This document shows, in pieces, positions 8,753-13,138 of a stretch of DNA of 23,923 nucleotides; within the stretch, counting starts at the first letter, position 1, and each line of letters begins with the position of its first letter. The DNA is taken from positions 1 through 23,923 of IMG/VR virus record IMGVR_UViG_3300044630_001752; one strand, 5' to 3'. The position numbers and the translations under genes were made by a program. This DNA is from a virus. The notes under the pieces were generated by a model that saw only the letters and a program-made list of their open reading frames with translations, was not told where the DNA came from and did not search any database.

Positions 8753-8995
8753 ATGACCACAGAAATGCTATGGAGCGCGGGCCTGTCAGCCATCCTCGCC
8801 CTCGTGGGCTGGATTCTAAAAGGCCATTCCGACGAGGTGCAGCGACTGCAAATCCTGCTCAATCGCACCCGCGAGGACATGGCGCGGGAGTACGTCACCA
8901 AGACCGACGTGCAGGCCAGTATCAACATGCTGATCGCCCGGATCGACAACCTCGACCACAAGATTGACGCCCTCCTGCGGAGCCTCGCCAAATGA
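8753..8995 (+). CDS. TM plus coiled-coil protein, candidate i-spanin
   Basis: An 80-residue inner-membrane protein. One N-terminal membrane segment (residues ~7-23, SAGLSAILALVGWIL) is followed by a charged helix to the C-terminus with heptad-like Leu/Ile (RLQILL, INMLIARIDNLDHKIDALL). This is the architecture of an i-spanin, the inner-membrane half of the complex that fuses the membranes in the last step of lysis. The stop overlaps the start of a lipoprotein gene by ATGA, which matches the usual Rz/Rz1-like pairing. It is short for an i-spanin, and the topology is assumed. A holin accessory role is the main alternative. Confidence 0.65.
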   Translation: MTTEMLWSAGLSAILALVGWILKGHSDEVQRLQILLNRTREDMAREYVTKTDVQASINMLIARIDNLDHKIDALLRSLAK

Positions 8996-9207
8996 GACTT
9001 GCCCTTGTCCTCTTGGTCGCTGGCTGCGGCCCTGTTACTGTGTCCTCGGTGGCCTACACCACTGCCTGCCCGAAAGGTGACCGACAGTGCGAGATTCGTC
9101 AGAACGCGGAAACTCTTTACTACATGGCCATGCCAGACGCGGCAAACGCACTTCTTTGCTCTGGCGACACGCGGGACGTTATGGGAGCCTTGTGCTCTGT
9201 CTACTGA
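8992..9207 (+). CDS. Small lipoprotein, candidate o-spanin
   Basis: A 71-residue predicted lipoprotein. It has a very short signal (MRLALVLLVAGC) with lipobox VAGC, so Cys12 would be lipidated. The mature part is about 60 residues and contains further Cys residues. It starts inside the stop of the TM/coiled-coil gene (ATGA) and would sit on the inner face of the outer membrane, as an Rz1-like o-spanin does. It lacks the Pro-rich composition typical of many Rz1 proteins, so the role rests on gene pairing and lipobox. An alternative + frame over the same DNA (8999-9223) lacks these signals. Confidence 0.65.
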   Translation: MRLALVLLVAGCGPVTVSSVAYTTACPKGDRQCEIRQNAETLYYMAMPDAANALLCSGDTRDVMGALCSVY

Positions 9208-9866
9208 CAGCAAGCATCGCTGACGCTCAAGTCACGGGCGATCTTAACACCAACTCCGGCAACACCAACTCCACCATCGGCTCAAACAACAACGACAGCA
9301 CCACCAACTACAATGGTGCTGGGTCTGCGCCGTTCTCGACCCCCGTGCCGACAGCCGCAGCGCCGACAGTCATGGGCGGCGGTGGCAACGATAGCTGCCT
9401 CATCCCGTACCAGCAGGCGTTTCAGGTCAGCATCTTCGGTCGCGCTGAGGGAAAGATGGAACAAGACCCAGAGTGCAACCGCCGCAAGGATGCCCGCCTT
9501 TTGGGCACACCACAGGAAAGCGGGGGTCTTGGCCTGCAGGTCTCAGGCATCGCCGTCATGTGCGACAGCCCAGAAATCTTCAAAGCTATGGCCTTGGCGT
9601 CGACGCCATGCCCGATCTACTCCATCGCCACGGGCAAGTTGCTGGTCGGTCGGGAGGGGTATCTCGCAATGCGTGACGACCCCTATAGTTATGTGGTAGG
9701 ATACGCGGAAGATCAGGCGTTCTGGGACGCCTTCCTACTCATGAACGAGGAGTTGCCAGATGTCGTTGCTGAAGAAAACAGTGGTCCTACTCTTTCTGAG
9801 CGTTTCCGCCGCACACGCCGATCCGACGATGACAAGCCTGCAAGGGTCGGCACAGACAATCCTTGA
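9192..9866 (+). CDS. Secreted Asn-rich protein with conserved-Cys domain
   Basis: Counting from the GTG at 9192, this is a 224-residue protein. It starts with a short hydrophobic signal (VLCLLTASIADA, cleavage before QVTG). A low-complexity Asn/Thr/Ser stalk follows (~15-45), then a Pro/Ala linker. The domain at ~65-152 has Cys69, Cys95, Cys124 and Cys140 in the contexts NDSCLI, PECNRRKDAR, AVMCDSPEIF and STPCPI. I recall the same pattern in uncharacterised marine phage proteins. Start choice is uncertain: GTG 9192 has GGGAG 4 nt upstream, TTG 9156 would give a better basic n-region, and GTG 9087 is possible but extends deep into the lipoprotein gene. The last 107 nt overlap the next gene in another frame. 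Function unknown; likely periplasmic or surface. Confidence 0.7.
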   Translation: MLCLLTASIADAQVTGDLNTNSGNTNSTIGSNNNDSTTNYNGAGSAPFSTPVPTAAAPTVMGGGGNDSCLIPYQQAFQVSIFGRAEGKMEQDPECNRRKDARLLGTPQESGGLGLQVSGIAVMCDSPEIFKAMALASTPCPIYSIATGKLLVGREGYLAMRDDPYSYVVGYAEDQAFWDAFLLMNEELPDVVAEENSGPTLSERFRRTRRSDDDKPARVGTDNP

Positions 9867-10509
9867 CCAGCTTGCCGCATCGCAGAGCCTGACGGCTGGT
9901 GCGATCTACAGCGCCAGCAACGGCGACATCCTCGCGCCGGGTGTCATGCAGGACGCCATCATCACCGAGCAGATGCGGCTGGATTACAACGCTGACGTTC
10001 AGGGGGTGATCGACGCGACGTACTACAACGCCGAGATGCTGTTTCAGGATCAATACGCCGCAACAATGGTCAATCTCGATTCGGCTGTCGATAACCTCGT
10101 TGCCGCGACTGCGGTTCTAGCCGAGGTGCAGGCGGTGGCGAACATGGCTGCCAACGCCGACACGGTCACTGAGCAGCTTGCTGTGCAGGCCGTCCTGTCC
10201 AACAATGACATGACCGTCACGGCTGCCGACGTGAGCAACTACAACAACGCTCTGGGCGCTGTGCAGTCCTATGCGCGCGATGCTGGTGCCTTCTTGGCCG
10301 CGTCTCGCAGCTCAACCATGACCGGGACTGTCGATGCCTACGCCTCCAACAGCGGCACCAGCCTCTACGGCGCAACGGTGGCCTACAGCGCCACGGCTGA
10401 CCTCATGAACATCTCTGCCGCCAACGCCTTCGGCATCGGCCTGCAAGGCTTGCTTGCTGCGGACACTGTGACGCTGGCCGATGTATACGCTGCTGGGTAT
10501 GGTTCGTGA
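9760..10509 (+). CDS. Secreted Ala-rich helical protein, unknown function
   Basis: A 249-residue protein with a clear signal peptide (basic KK at 5-6, hydrophobic TVVLLFLSVSAAHA, cleavage before DP). The mature part is helical, rich in Ala, Asn, Val and Thr, with repeated motifs such as VQAVANMAANADTVTEQLAV and no Cys. GAGGAG upstream of the ATG gives good initiation even though the start is 107 nt inside the preceding gene. The stop overlaps the next gene's GTG start. I cannot name a family. Export to the periplasm and position among envelope genes suggest an envelope role, perhaps lysis timing or exclusion (inference). Confidence 0.75.
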   Translation: MSLLKKTVVLLFLSVSAAHADPTMTSLQGSAQTILDQLAASQSLTAGAIYSASNGDILAPGVMQDAIITEQMRLDYNADVQGVIDATYYNAEMLFQDQYAATMVNLDSAVDNLVAATAVLAEVQAVANMAANADTVTEQLAVQAVLSNNDMTVTAADVSNYNNALGAVQSYARDAGAFLAASRSSTMTGTVDAYASNSGTSLYGATVAYSATADLMNISAANAFGIGLQGLLAADTVTLADVYAAGYGS

Positions 10510-10937
10510 GCGAAGAAGCTGAAACCAACGGCCTGCGGATCGCTGGCTTTGACGTAAAGGGGTGGTGGCTTGCCGCCGCCCTGCCTGTCTTGTCCGGGGT
10601 CAGCGGCACGATCTACTATGCCTACGATGTGGTGAACCGCTTCTGGGCTGTCGAGGAGAGCGTGGATGGGGTCTTGGGTGTCGAGAGCCGCGTCCAGACC
10701 CTCGAGCAGGCGATACAGGACAATGACGTTCGAGGGCTTGCCCCGAAGCTCAGCGCGATCAGCACCCAGATGGGCACGATCTTGGAGCAACAAAAGGAGC
10801 TCATGGACCTTCGGTCGATGGTAGAGAAGTCGGACAGCGTGACCAGCAACCTTCAAGGGAAGCTGGAGAAGTACGACGCCGAGATTGAGGACCTATGGAA
10901 AGCTATGGATGATCTCATAAGGAATCCCATGCAATGA
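10506..10937 (+). CDS. Inner-membrane coiled-coil protein
   Basis: A 143-residue protein. After a short hydrophilic N-terminus it has one membrane segment (residues ~20-40, WWLAAALPVLSGVSGTIYYAY). A long amphipathic helix follows (~48-135) with heptad-like spacing (VQTLEQAIQ, IGTILEQQKELMDLRSM, LQGKLEKYDAEIEDLWKAM). The start is GTG inside the preceding stop (GTGA). It resembles the gene at 8753 in layout but is longer, so it could be the true i-spanin or a second scaffold protein. No enzyme motif is seen. Confidence 0.72.
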   Translation: MSEEAETNGLRIAGFDVKGWWLAAALPVLSGVSGTIYYAYDVVNRFWAVEESVDGVLGVESRVQTLEQAIQDNDVRGLAPKLSAISTQMGTILEQQKELMDLRSMVEKSDSVTSNLQGKLEKYDAEIEDLWKAMDDLIRNPMQ

Positions 10938-11125
10938 TGAAGATGGAAGCCTTAGTCTGGGGGGCGTTTCTCGCCGCCGTCGCCGCGATCTTCTGGGTCA
11001 GCGGTGATGGCTTTTACCGCTACCCCTGCCAAGACCCCGCGAACTGGGCTGCGCTTGAGTGCACCCCTCCCATTTGCCTTCGCACTGGCATGTGCGCCAC
11101 CGACCTGACAGGAGACTCGCAATGA
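10934..11125 (+). CDS. One-TM miniprotein with four-Cys periplasmic tail
   Basis: A 63-residue protein. A membrane segment (~7-22) leads into GFYRYPCQDPANW and then ECTPPICLRTGMC, giving Cys32, Cys43, Cys48 and Cys54. I recall the YPCQDP..W....C.PP.C spacing from small genes in several marine phages, where it has no assigned role. It starts in the stop of the preceding gene (ATGA) and its own stop holds the next ATG. Two disulfides in the periplasm are plausible (inference). Confidence 0.68.
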   Translation: MMKMEALVWGAFLAAVAAIFWVSGDGFYRYPCQDPANWAALECTPPICLRTGMCATDLTGDSQ

Positions 11126-11403
11126 GCAAGAACAACCCGGAAATGATGGAGGCCAAGCTGCGGTACTTCATCGGCTGCGCCTTGGTGGTAATCTTGGCTG
11201 GCACCATCTTCACCATCCTCTACTCGCTGGTCTTCGTGACCCAGCCCCTTGGAGAGTCGAGCGAGAACGACCGCAAGTTCTTCGAGCTGCTTACTCCCAT
11301 CGCCTCGTTCATCGTGGGCGCTCTTGGCGGCGTGATGGCGGCGGGCAACAACCGCAACAAGGGTGGCAACGATGAGCCGCCGACACAGGAGTACACCGAG
11401 TGA
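11122..11403 (+). CDS. Two-TM holin-like protein
   Basis: This 93-residue protein has two predicted membrane helices, ~15-39 (FIGCALVVILAGTIFTILYSLVF) and ~55-75 (ELLTPIASFIVGALGGVMAA), with a charged loop between them (GESSENDRK). The C-terminal tail is hydrophilic. Size and topology fit a class II holin, which would release or activate the endolysin. I chose the ATG at 11122 because it overlaps the preceding stop (ATGA); a longer frame from 11059 would run far into the upstream gene. The endolysin lies four genes downstream. Holins cannot be proved by sequence, so this is architecture-based. Confidence 0.65.
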   Translation: MSKNNPEMMEAKLRYFIGCALVVILAGTIFTILYSLVFVTQPLGESSENDRKFFELLTPIASFIVGALGGVMAAGNNRNKGGNDEPPTQEYTE

Positions 11404-11639
11404 TGGATTTTGGAGACGCACTCCGCGCCCTCAAGCAGGGTAAGCGCCTTTCGCGCACTGGATGGAACGGCAGGGGCCTGTGGCTGGAGCTGCAGGTGCC
11501 TGACGCAGGCAGTAAGATGACGCTGCCCTACGTTTACTTGAACTACCCCGACAACGCCCAGAACACTCCGGGCGCTCGGGTTCCGTGGCTTGCCAGCCAG
11601 ACGGATATGCTGGCCGAAGATTGGGGGATTGCAGAATGA
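11400..11639 (+). CDS. DUF2829 protein, Tad2-like (Thoeris anti-defence) candidate
   Basis: A 79-residue protein that matches the DUF2829 pattern: FGDALRALKQGKRLSRTGWNGRG at residues 4-26 and PWLASQTDMLAEDW at 62-75. Known members include Tad2, a small phage protein that binds the cyclic ADP-ribose-type signal of Thoeris TIR defence and so blocks cell suicide; some homologues also bind cyclic dinucleotides. Length and both conserved blocks agree. The middle insert (VPDAGSKMTLPYVYLNYPDNAQNTPGAR) is specific to this copy. It starts inside the preceding stop and overlaps the next gene by ATGA. Family membership is strong; sequestering activity in this copy is inferred. Confidence 0.8.
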   Translation: MMDFGDALRALKQGKRLSRTGWNGRGLWLELQVPDAGSKMTLPYVYLNYPDNAQNTPGARVPWLASQTDMLAEDWGIAE

Positions 11640-11863
11640 TCGGACGCATCGTTGGGATGCTTGTTGGCCGCAAGCTCAAAGAGAAGGCCGTTGACGCAGT
11701 GCTGGACAAGGTGAACCTGCCTGATCCGGTCGAAGGTGCCATCAAGATCGCCGCCACGGGCAACGTGGGCGACCTGCTTGGCGGCATGGGCAAGGACATG
11801 GCGCAGGAGGCTGTGCTGGGCGCTGTCACCAAGAAGGTGCCGACCAAGAGACCAAAGAAATGA
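11636..11863 (+). CDS. Small basic protein of unknown function
   Basis: This 75-residue protein starts with a short hydrophobic, Gly-containing helix (MIGRIVGMLVG). Helical segments with Lys follow, then a Gly-rich loop (GDLLGGMGKD), and it ends VTKKVPTKRPKK. The start at 11636 is preferred over 11585 because of the ATGA overlap with the DUF2829 gene. The basic tail could bind nucleic acid or membrane phosphates. I recognise no family. Confidence 0.62.
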   Translation: MIGRIVGMLVGRKLKEKAVDAVLDKVNLPDPVEGAIKIAATGNVGDLLGGMGKDMAQEAVLGAVTKKVPTKRPKK

Positions 11864-12267
11864 GGTGGATCGTTGCCCTGCTCCTGTCCACGACCTGCGC
11901 GACCGCCACACCCTATGAGATCACCCGCGTGATTGATGGCGATACGCTCGAGATCGCGGTGGACTTCCTCCCAGAGCCTCTGCCGCCGAAGCTGTCGATC
12001 CGGGTGATGGGTGTGGATACACCAGAGAAGGCACCGCGCGCCCAGTGTGATGCCGAGGCGGCTTTGGCGAAGAAGGCCAGCGCCTTCACCAAGAACGCGG
12101 TTGCCAACGCCCTCGAGGTCGATGTCGTCATCCTCAAGTGGGACAAGTACGGGGGTAGGGTTCTGGGTGAGGTCTATCTGGACCACCAGAGCCTTGCGGA
12201 AAGTCTGATCTCAGCGGGCCTAGCCCGCCCATACAAAGGCGAGGCCAAGTCCTCGTGGTGCGAATAG
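11860..12267 (+). CDS. Secreted staphylococcal-nuclease-like (thermonuclease) protein
   Basis: A 135-residue member of the SNase family, calcium-dependent enzymes that cut DNA and RNA. A signal peptide (residues 1-16, MRWIVALLLSTTCATA) sends it to the periplasm. The expected motifs are present: VIDGDT (D26), RVMGVDTPE with R48, D53, T54 and E56 in the spacing of Staphylococcus nuclease R35, D40, T41 and E43, and YGGRVLGEV with R100 matching R87. LISAGLARPY closes the domain. All catalytic residues are kept, so it should be active. It starts in the preceding stop and the endolysin follows 10 nt later. Possible roles are degrading host DNA at lysis or destroying competing phage DNA in the periplasm (inference). 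Confidence 0.85.
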   Translation: MRWIVALLLSTTCATATPYEITRVIDGDTLEIAVDFLPEPLPPKLSIRVMGVDTPEKAPRAQCDAEAALAKKASAFTKNAVANALEVDVVILKWDKYGGRVLGEVYLDHQSLAESLISAGLARPYKGEAKSSWCE

Positions 12268-12277
12268 GAGCCCATAG

Positions 12278-13138
12278 ATGAGCCTGATTACTGAAGCCCA
12301 ACTGGCCGTGATGCTGCCGACCAACAAGGAGGTCGGGGAGTGGTGCGCGGCCCTCAATGAGATGCTGCCCAAGTACGGCATCACCACCGACAAGCGCATC
12401 GCTGGCTTCATCAGCCAGTGCGCCCACGAAAGCATGGACTTCCGGGTGCTGGAGGAGAATCTGAACTACAAGGAGGCAACTCTCCTGAAGGTCTTCCCAC
12501 GCTACTTTGGCCCCGGCAAAGAGAACGCCGCCGAGTATGCTGGCAATCCGCAAAAGATCGCCAACTATGTGTACATGGACAAGAACCGCTCCAAGGGCGG
12601 CGCTTTGGGCAATGTGAAGGAAAATGACGGTTTCGCCATGAGAGGCAAAGGTCTGAAGCAAGTCACGGGCCGTGCGAACCATGAAGCATTTGGCAAGACA
12701 GTCGGCATGACTGCCGAGGAAGCCGCCGAGTATCTGATGACCAAGAAGGGCGCGCTTGAGAGCGCACTGTGGTTCTGGGGCAGCCGCAACCTGAACGAGG
12801 TCGCAGACACTGGCGACGTGGCCCGTCTGACAAAGATCATCAATGGCGGTGACATCGGCCTCGCAGACCGTCAGGCCCGCTATTCTAAGGCCATGTCTGC
12901 ATTGGGTGGTACTACCCCTGCCCAAACTCAAGGTGCCGCTCCTGCGACGGCTGTTGGGGCTCTACGCAAGGGCTCCAAGGGTGAGGAGGTCAAGAGGATG
13001 CAGGCGGCTCTCGGGATTGGCGCTGATGGCGACTTTGGTCCGGGCACCGAGGCTGCGCTCAAGAAGTGGCAGGCTGCAAATGGCTTGACCGCTGATGGCG
13101 TAGCTGGCCCGAAGACGTTGGCTAATCTTCTCGGGTGA
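12278..13138 (+). CDS. Endolysin: GH19 catalytic domain plus peptidoglycan-binding domain
   Basis: A 286-residue lysis enzyme expected to cut the peptidoglycan glycan strand. The N-terminal ~205 residues are GH19 (chitinase/muramidase type): FISQCAHES with likely acid E51, EENLNY with E59/E60 as second acidic candidates, then YFGPGKENAAEYAGNPQKIA, RGKGLKQVTGRANHEAF and ALWFW. An Ala/Thr/Pro/Gln linker (~207-226) leads to a PG_binding_1 domain at ~227-286 (LRKGSKGEEVKRMQAALG, DGDFGPGTEAALKKWQ, NGLTADGVAGPKT). There is no signal peptide, so export would rely on the holin-like gene product. AGGAG overlaps the upstream stop. Confidence 0.93.
   Translation: MSLITEAQLAVMLPTNKEVGEWCAALNEMLPKYGITTDKRIAGFISQCAHESMDFRVLEENLNYKEATLLKVFPRYFGPGKENAAEYAGNPQKIANYVYMDKNRSKGGALGNVKENDGFAMRGKGLKQVTGRANHEAFGKTVGMTAEEAAEYLMTKKGALESALWFWGSRNLNEVADTGDVARLTKIINGGDIGLADRQARYSKAMSALGGTTPAQTQGAAPATAVGALRKGSKGEEVKRMQAALGIGADGDFGPGTEAALKKWQAANGLTADGVAGPKTLANLLG
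13108..13135 (+). terminator. Hairpin at the end of the endolysin gene, weak terminator candidate
   Basis: CCCGAAGA (13108-13115) pairs with TCTT plus CGGG (13126-13129, 13132-13135), leaving a 2-nt bulge and a 10-nt loop. It ends right before the TGA stop. No U-tract follows, so termination, if any, is weak or factor-dependent; it may instead protect the 3' end of the island mRNA. Confidence 0.3.

Follow-up and report, generated by a model that had tools for sequence, protein, structure and literature searches.

In a stretch of viral DNA of 23,923 nucleotides (IMG/VR virus record IMGVR_UViG_3300044630_001752, positions 1 to 23,923; the whole stretch is called the window hereafter), four overlapping genes at 8992-10937 form, as read from their sequences, one unit coding for a lipoprotein (B), an Asn-rich secreted protein (C), a helical secreted protein (D) and a membrane-anchored coiled coil (E). 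This block, present in many uncultured aquatic phages, has neither a name nor an assigned job, and in the family libraries searched, Pfam, PHROGs and NCBIfam among them, none of B, D and E falls into a functionally named family. We propose, with a probability of about 0.4, that B-C-D-E would be a late trans-envelope complex aiding the disruption of the outer membrane at virion release.

The block lies within an overlapping island at 8753-12267, whose ten genes, labelled A to J, are followed by the adjoining endolysin gene K, all on the + strand. The island described in the earlier note is real: the ten open reading frames were all confirmed and their junction lengths are conserved. The seven junctions of four or one bases counted there were recovered as six 4-base overlaps (A/B, D/E, E/F, F/G, H/I and I/J) and one 1-base overlap (G/H), and there are two long out-of-phase overlaps, of 52 nt for B/C, with the C start taken as the TTG at 9156, and of 107 nt for C/D. 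These lengths were kept in more than 100 related loci, the C/D overlap of -107 being found in 121 of 122 loci, the D/E overlap of -4 in 117/117 and the A/B overlap of -4 in 98 of 114, counts in which the loci are partly non-independent, some being overlapping pieces of the same contig. Such conservation argues against chance and makes the coupling a conserved feature. The dN/dS values of the island genes ranged from 0.07 to 0.29, all below 0.3, which indicates purifying selection. That eight of the genes are directed to the envelope also held, as a hydrophobic segment, N-terminal or internal, fitting export or membrane insertion was predicted in 8/10 island genes (A, B, C, D, E, F, G and J, the weakest being those of E and J) versus 2/13 of the other window genes (one-sided Fisher 0.003, with a segment threshold set post hoc on data already seen).

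The suggestion that the whole island is one machine stood for B-C-D-E, on gene order and joint loss, and fell for the ten genes together, since A, F-G and H are separable and J and K are common phage families. The island reads as a patchwork with a four-gene envelope block inside, not as a ten-gene machine. The conserved-synteny check that the earlier note had called for was run and gave a strong result for the block. B-C-D-E was found in order, with its overlaps kept, in 28/28 distant loci having enough upstream sequence, where D is about 35% identical to that of the window; none of these loci showed matches to A, F, G, H, I or J, and the K model matched in three of them. The cultured roseophages CRP-810 and CRP-207 carry A-B-C-D-E and B-C-D-E, respectively, in order, and over the 24 kb of CRP-810 examined no further window gene among those queried was matched at E<=1e-4. 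Loss was joint as well: wherever one of B, C, D and E was absent, all four were absent, in 11 loci (five distinct sequences) from scans in which the G and C proteins of the window served as queries. The 24-kb contig L039, where B-E are missing, showed no match to C and none to phrog_739. The known hosts of module carriers are all Gram-negative alphaproteobacteria. At L041:5182-5817 and similar loci, a 48-aa and a 163-aa protein are encoded between A and B or in place of B-E, the larger with a C-terminal TM and the motif MFDP.SIG...SKAF..LKQGIA.GREIQDM; they were rejected as a substitute for the missing genes, being no clean replacement and both co-occurring also with B-E.

B (8992..9207) is a predicted 71-aa lipoprotein with the lipobox LVAGC, whose Cys is invariant in four lineages (the window, MW202675, CRP-810 and CRP-207), and it shares with E the strongest constraint (dN/dS of 0.09 and 0.07, respectively). 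The comparison of B with the broad C family by hhalign gave a Prob of 97.2, whereas no such relationship was seen with the window's own narrow C family, and the B model also matched C ORFs at 1e-3 to 1e-7. These profiles make B a relative of the C domain that is shortened and lipidated, with a predicted outer-membrane placement. C (9156..9866), a relative of phrog_20531, is a predicted secreted Asn/Thr-rich protein with a C-terminal four-Cys domain. Its start is most likely the TTG at 9156, within B, as judged from its homologues, which have ATG, GTG or TTG at the equivalent position followed by the signal peptide MLWRHAGRYG...LLCLLTA.A.AQ. In the B/C overlap it is the protein of B that is conserved, with a pN of 0.04 in the B frame versus 0.16 in the C frame. 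AlphaFold2 predicted the Cys domain of C better (pLDDT 72-93) than the Asn-rich arm ahead of it, which is disordered. For D (9760..10509), a secreted Ala-rich helical protein whose signal peptide is coded within C, it gave a helical bundle with C-terminal beta strands and a mean pLDDT of 84.6. Fold searches against the PDB led to no convincing known family, with one match at Z 2.1 for C and, for D, nothing beyond generic helical matches (Z 7.1 at most); the viral matches of both were uncharacterised proteins. E (10506..10937) exhibits a short N-terminus, a TM and a coiled coil of about 100 aa ending in NPM/NPL, and matched distant E proteins with an hhalign Prob of 97.9. In the GenBank records of CRP-810 and CRP-207, B is unannotated, D, the start of which falls within C, is truncated and has therefore lost its signal peptide, and E is labelled lysozyme. 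This label was rejected, as no lysozyme match was found for the window E in Pfam and PHROGs or for the two roseophage versions in PHROGs.

A more distant version of the block, C-D'-E, combines the same C and E families with another secreted protein between them and was found in pelagiphages and jumbo-phage contigs. The C family (phrog_20531) occurs in pelagiphages and in hundreds of IMG/VR contigs, some longer than 300 kb, and its distant members comprise at least 598 confirmed stretches in uncultured aquatic phages. C and its pelagiphage homologues match phrog_20531, a family of unassigned function to which B, D and E do not belong. The succession of C, a secreted D' and E, often overlapping, was found in 48 of the 56 distant loci with enough sequence, a count that is approximate as the sequences used in the iterative building of the D' model were heterogeneous and in part of low complexity. 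A relation of D to D' was discarded, with an hhalign Prob of 13.9 and no detectable kinship. The distant C-D'-E units are mostly without a lipoprotein, a candidate being present in 7 of 61. In four C-D'-E phages (L171, L317, L325 and L326) a lipase-like gene, possibly coding for a membrane-lysis enzyme, was spotted by eye between E/A and the holin/lysozyme. Hyphomonadaceae chromosomes (contigs L175-L181) encode, as single genes, secreted proteins in which long Asn-rich or Gly-X-Asn repeats are followed by the phage C domain at the end.

The predicted anatomy of the block suggests an envelope-spanning complex, as it comprises an inner-membrane coiled coil, two periplasmic proteins and an outer-membrane lipoprotein. 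E would be anchored in the inner membrane with its coiled coil extending into the periplasm, D and C would be exported to the periplasm, and B would be an outer-membrane lipoprotein built on the shortened C domain. The four proteins, probably expressed late, might destabilise the outer membrane in a spanin-like manner, with more parts than a spanin, while the holin-like pair F-G and the endolysin K would open the inner membrane and the wall, J would break down extracytoplasmic DNA and H would be anti-defence cargo. The unity of the block, its localisation signals, its conserved overlaps and the relatedness of B and C can be read in the genes themselves; the physical complex, its timing and its outer-membrane role we infer. 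According to Kongari et al. (2018, PMC6139136), phage lipoprotein genes are rare and are the usual route by which spanins are found. The complete records of CRP-810, CRP-207 and MW202675 each encode a single credible lipoprotein, B, all further candidates being antisense or out of frame, and PF03245 (Rz) gave no match in 21 module-bearing records with a positive control. Together these two results point to outer-membrane disruption. In the window the block sits between the tail fibres and the endolysin, and in some contigs distant C-D'-E units lie near a lysozyme, M15 peptidase or holin. Several findings stand against outer-membrane disruption: most distant C-D'-E units have no lipoprotein candidate; GH24 or M15 was found within 8 kb in only 11/56 distant loci, with incomplete models; the holin and GH108 endolysin of CRP-810 lie about 23 kb from A-E; and the C domain also stands alone as a secreted protein in the Hyphomonadaceae chromosomes. 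Moreover, in two contigs (L363 and L373) a canonical Rz-like/Rz1-like overlapping pair directly follows C-D'-E (phrog_739, E about 1e-14), so that in these two the module cannot simply be equated with the spanin.

Compared with two-component spanins such as lambda Rz/Rz1, the block likewise has a predicted inner-membrane TM with a predicted periplasmic coiled coil (E), a small putative outer-membrane lipoprotein (B) and overlapping genes, and it is likewise missed by gene callers, as both roseophage records illustrate. It differs in that B and E are set apart by two secreted proteins, over about 1.3 kb, in that B is related to C, and in that related C-D'-E units stand beside a true Rz/Rz1-like pair. 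B has the lipobox of a spanin lipoprotein, with predicted outer-membrane sorting, and E fits a type II inner-membrane coiled coil by hydropathy and coiled-coil pattern, in a predicted orientation. Spanins are very diverse in sequence. No spanin-family match was found for E in Pfam or PHROGs, and A gave only phrog_739 at E=0.084. L363 and L373, where the module would not be the sole spanin system of its phage, are both C-D'-E examples that do not carry B. C was not found in the spanin-less cyanophages P-SSP7 and Syn5, the latter having only a homologue of A.

The spanin pair in L363 and L373 and the distance of the lysis genes in CRP-810 keep our confidence in outer-membrane disruption at the level given above, and leave some room for a reading that we consider rather unlikely, in which B-C-D-E remodels or shields the surface of the infected cell for superinfection exclusion or receptor masking, with D and E holding C, rich in Asn/Thr repeats, and B in place at the outer membrane. 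The coexistence of C-D'-E with a canonical spanin is consistent with such a role, as are the reports that CRP-810 is temperate and can integrate (PMC11288001), the host-secreted C-type proteins, whose long repeats are rich in Asn or Gly, and the nearby exported nuclease J, which could attack incoming DNA. The block is located, however, among late structural genes in the genomes examined, and no exclusion-protein family was matched in Pfam, PHROGs or NCBIfam.

We regard as doubtful that the island is an ordinary late lysis cassette, with A and B as two-component spanin, F and G as antiholin/holin, K as endolysin and C-D-E as accessory. A (8753..8995), an 80-aa protein of the phrog_462/phrog_7885 family with an N-terminal TM and a short coiled coil, does overlap the lipoprotein gene B by four bases, and its weak likeness to the Rz-like phrog_739 goes in the same direction. 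The distant A family was matched with an hhalign Prob of 99.8, and homologues are CRP-810 gp54 and a Syn5 ORF covering gp47. The spanin-like pair that had been proposed for A and B nevertheless finds no support in co-occurrence and was rejected as a unit: A is present without B in other loci, separable from B-E, and B is present without A in CRP-207 and in distant loci, B tracking C-D-E where A does not. The kinship of B to C likewise places B with C-D-E. F (10934..11125) is an anchored, predicted periplasmic four-Cys miniprotein (YRYPCQDPANW...C..P.C...G.C), an apparent relative of which, in L386, has a lipobox where the TM of F stands. F travels with G (11122..11403), a holin-like protein of the unnamed phrog_25359 that has two TMs. 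F-G is also present where B-E are lacking, namely in actinophage DSL-LC01, with no lysis gene annotated nearby, and in MW202462, where its place upstream of a chitinase-type endolysin speaks for the cassette. It is very improbable that B-C-D-E belong to the virion or to its assembly and are exported to some other end, for example as a trans-envelope tether in tail-fibre assembly or release: the block is often downstream of tail-fibre genes, but cleavable signal peptides would take C and D out of the cytoplasm, the site of virion assembly.

H (11403..11639), the role of which had been overlooked, is by sequence comparison a Tad2-type anti-defence gene and not a nameless envelope gene. It matched PF11195 (DUF2829) at E=1e-22 (80.9 bits, cut-off 25) with this fold over its full length, and matched full-length the PDB chains of SPO1 Tad2 and relatives (8wjd, 8sme, 8v3e). 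A Tad2 protein (Thoeris anti-defense 2) would be expected to bind either 1''-3' gcADPR or cyclic dinucleotides. H resembles the anti-Thoeris sponges (SPO1 gp34.65, SptTad2) along its entire length, with the motifs FG.AL..LK.G...R.GWNG and W..SQTD..AEDW, and differs from them as an optional gene within a late envelope operon. It was present in 26 of 133 loci, the window counted (about a fifth), and where it is absent G and I overlap by four bases in 103 of 105 loci, as for an optional insertion of predicted cargo. I (11636..11863) is a 75-aa basic protein with no TM and no family matched. J (11860..12267) is a nuclease of the staphylococcal-nuclease fold (PF00565 at E=1e-12, phrog_452) with a signal peptide predicted in the window lineage; a J-related gene in L171 is without one. 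K (12278..13138) matched the phrog_181 endolysins at E=2.6e-65, with a weak GH19 and PG_binding_1.

In a 2018 survey of Gram-negative phage genomes, about 13% had no recognisable spanin, many of these being marine, and how the outer membrane is opened there was listed as an unsolved problem (PMC6139136). That B-C-D-E and the wider C-D'-E family might be a new multi-protein outer-membrane breach in aquatic phages without a recognised spanin is a speculative and, at present, fairly unlikely extension of the proposal. B-C-D-E falls among late phage envelope and lysis genes and is not rated as categorically new, because its function is a proposal. The module is common in uncultured aquatic phages and rare among sequenced phage records (only 11 of 50,697), and as it is present in the cultured CRP-810 and CRP-207 and in several pelagiphages, its role can be tested.
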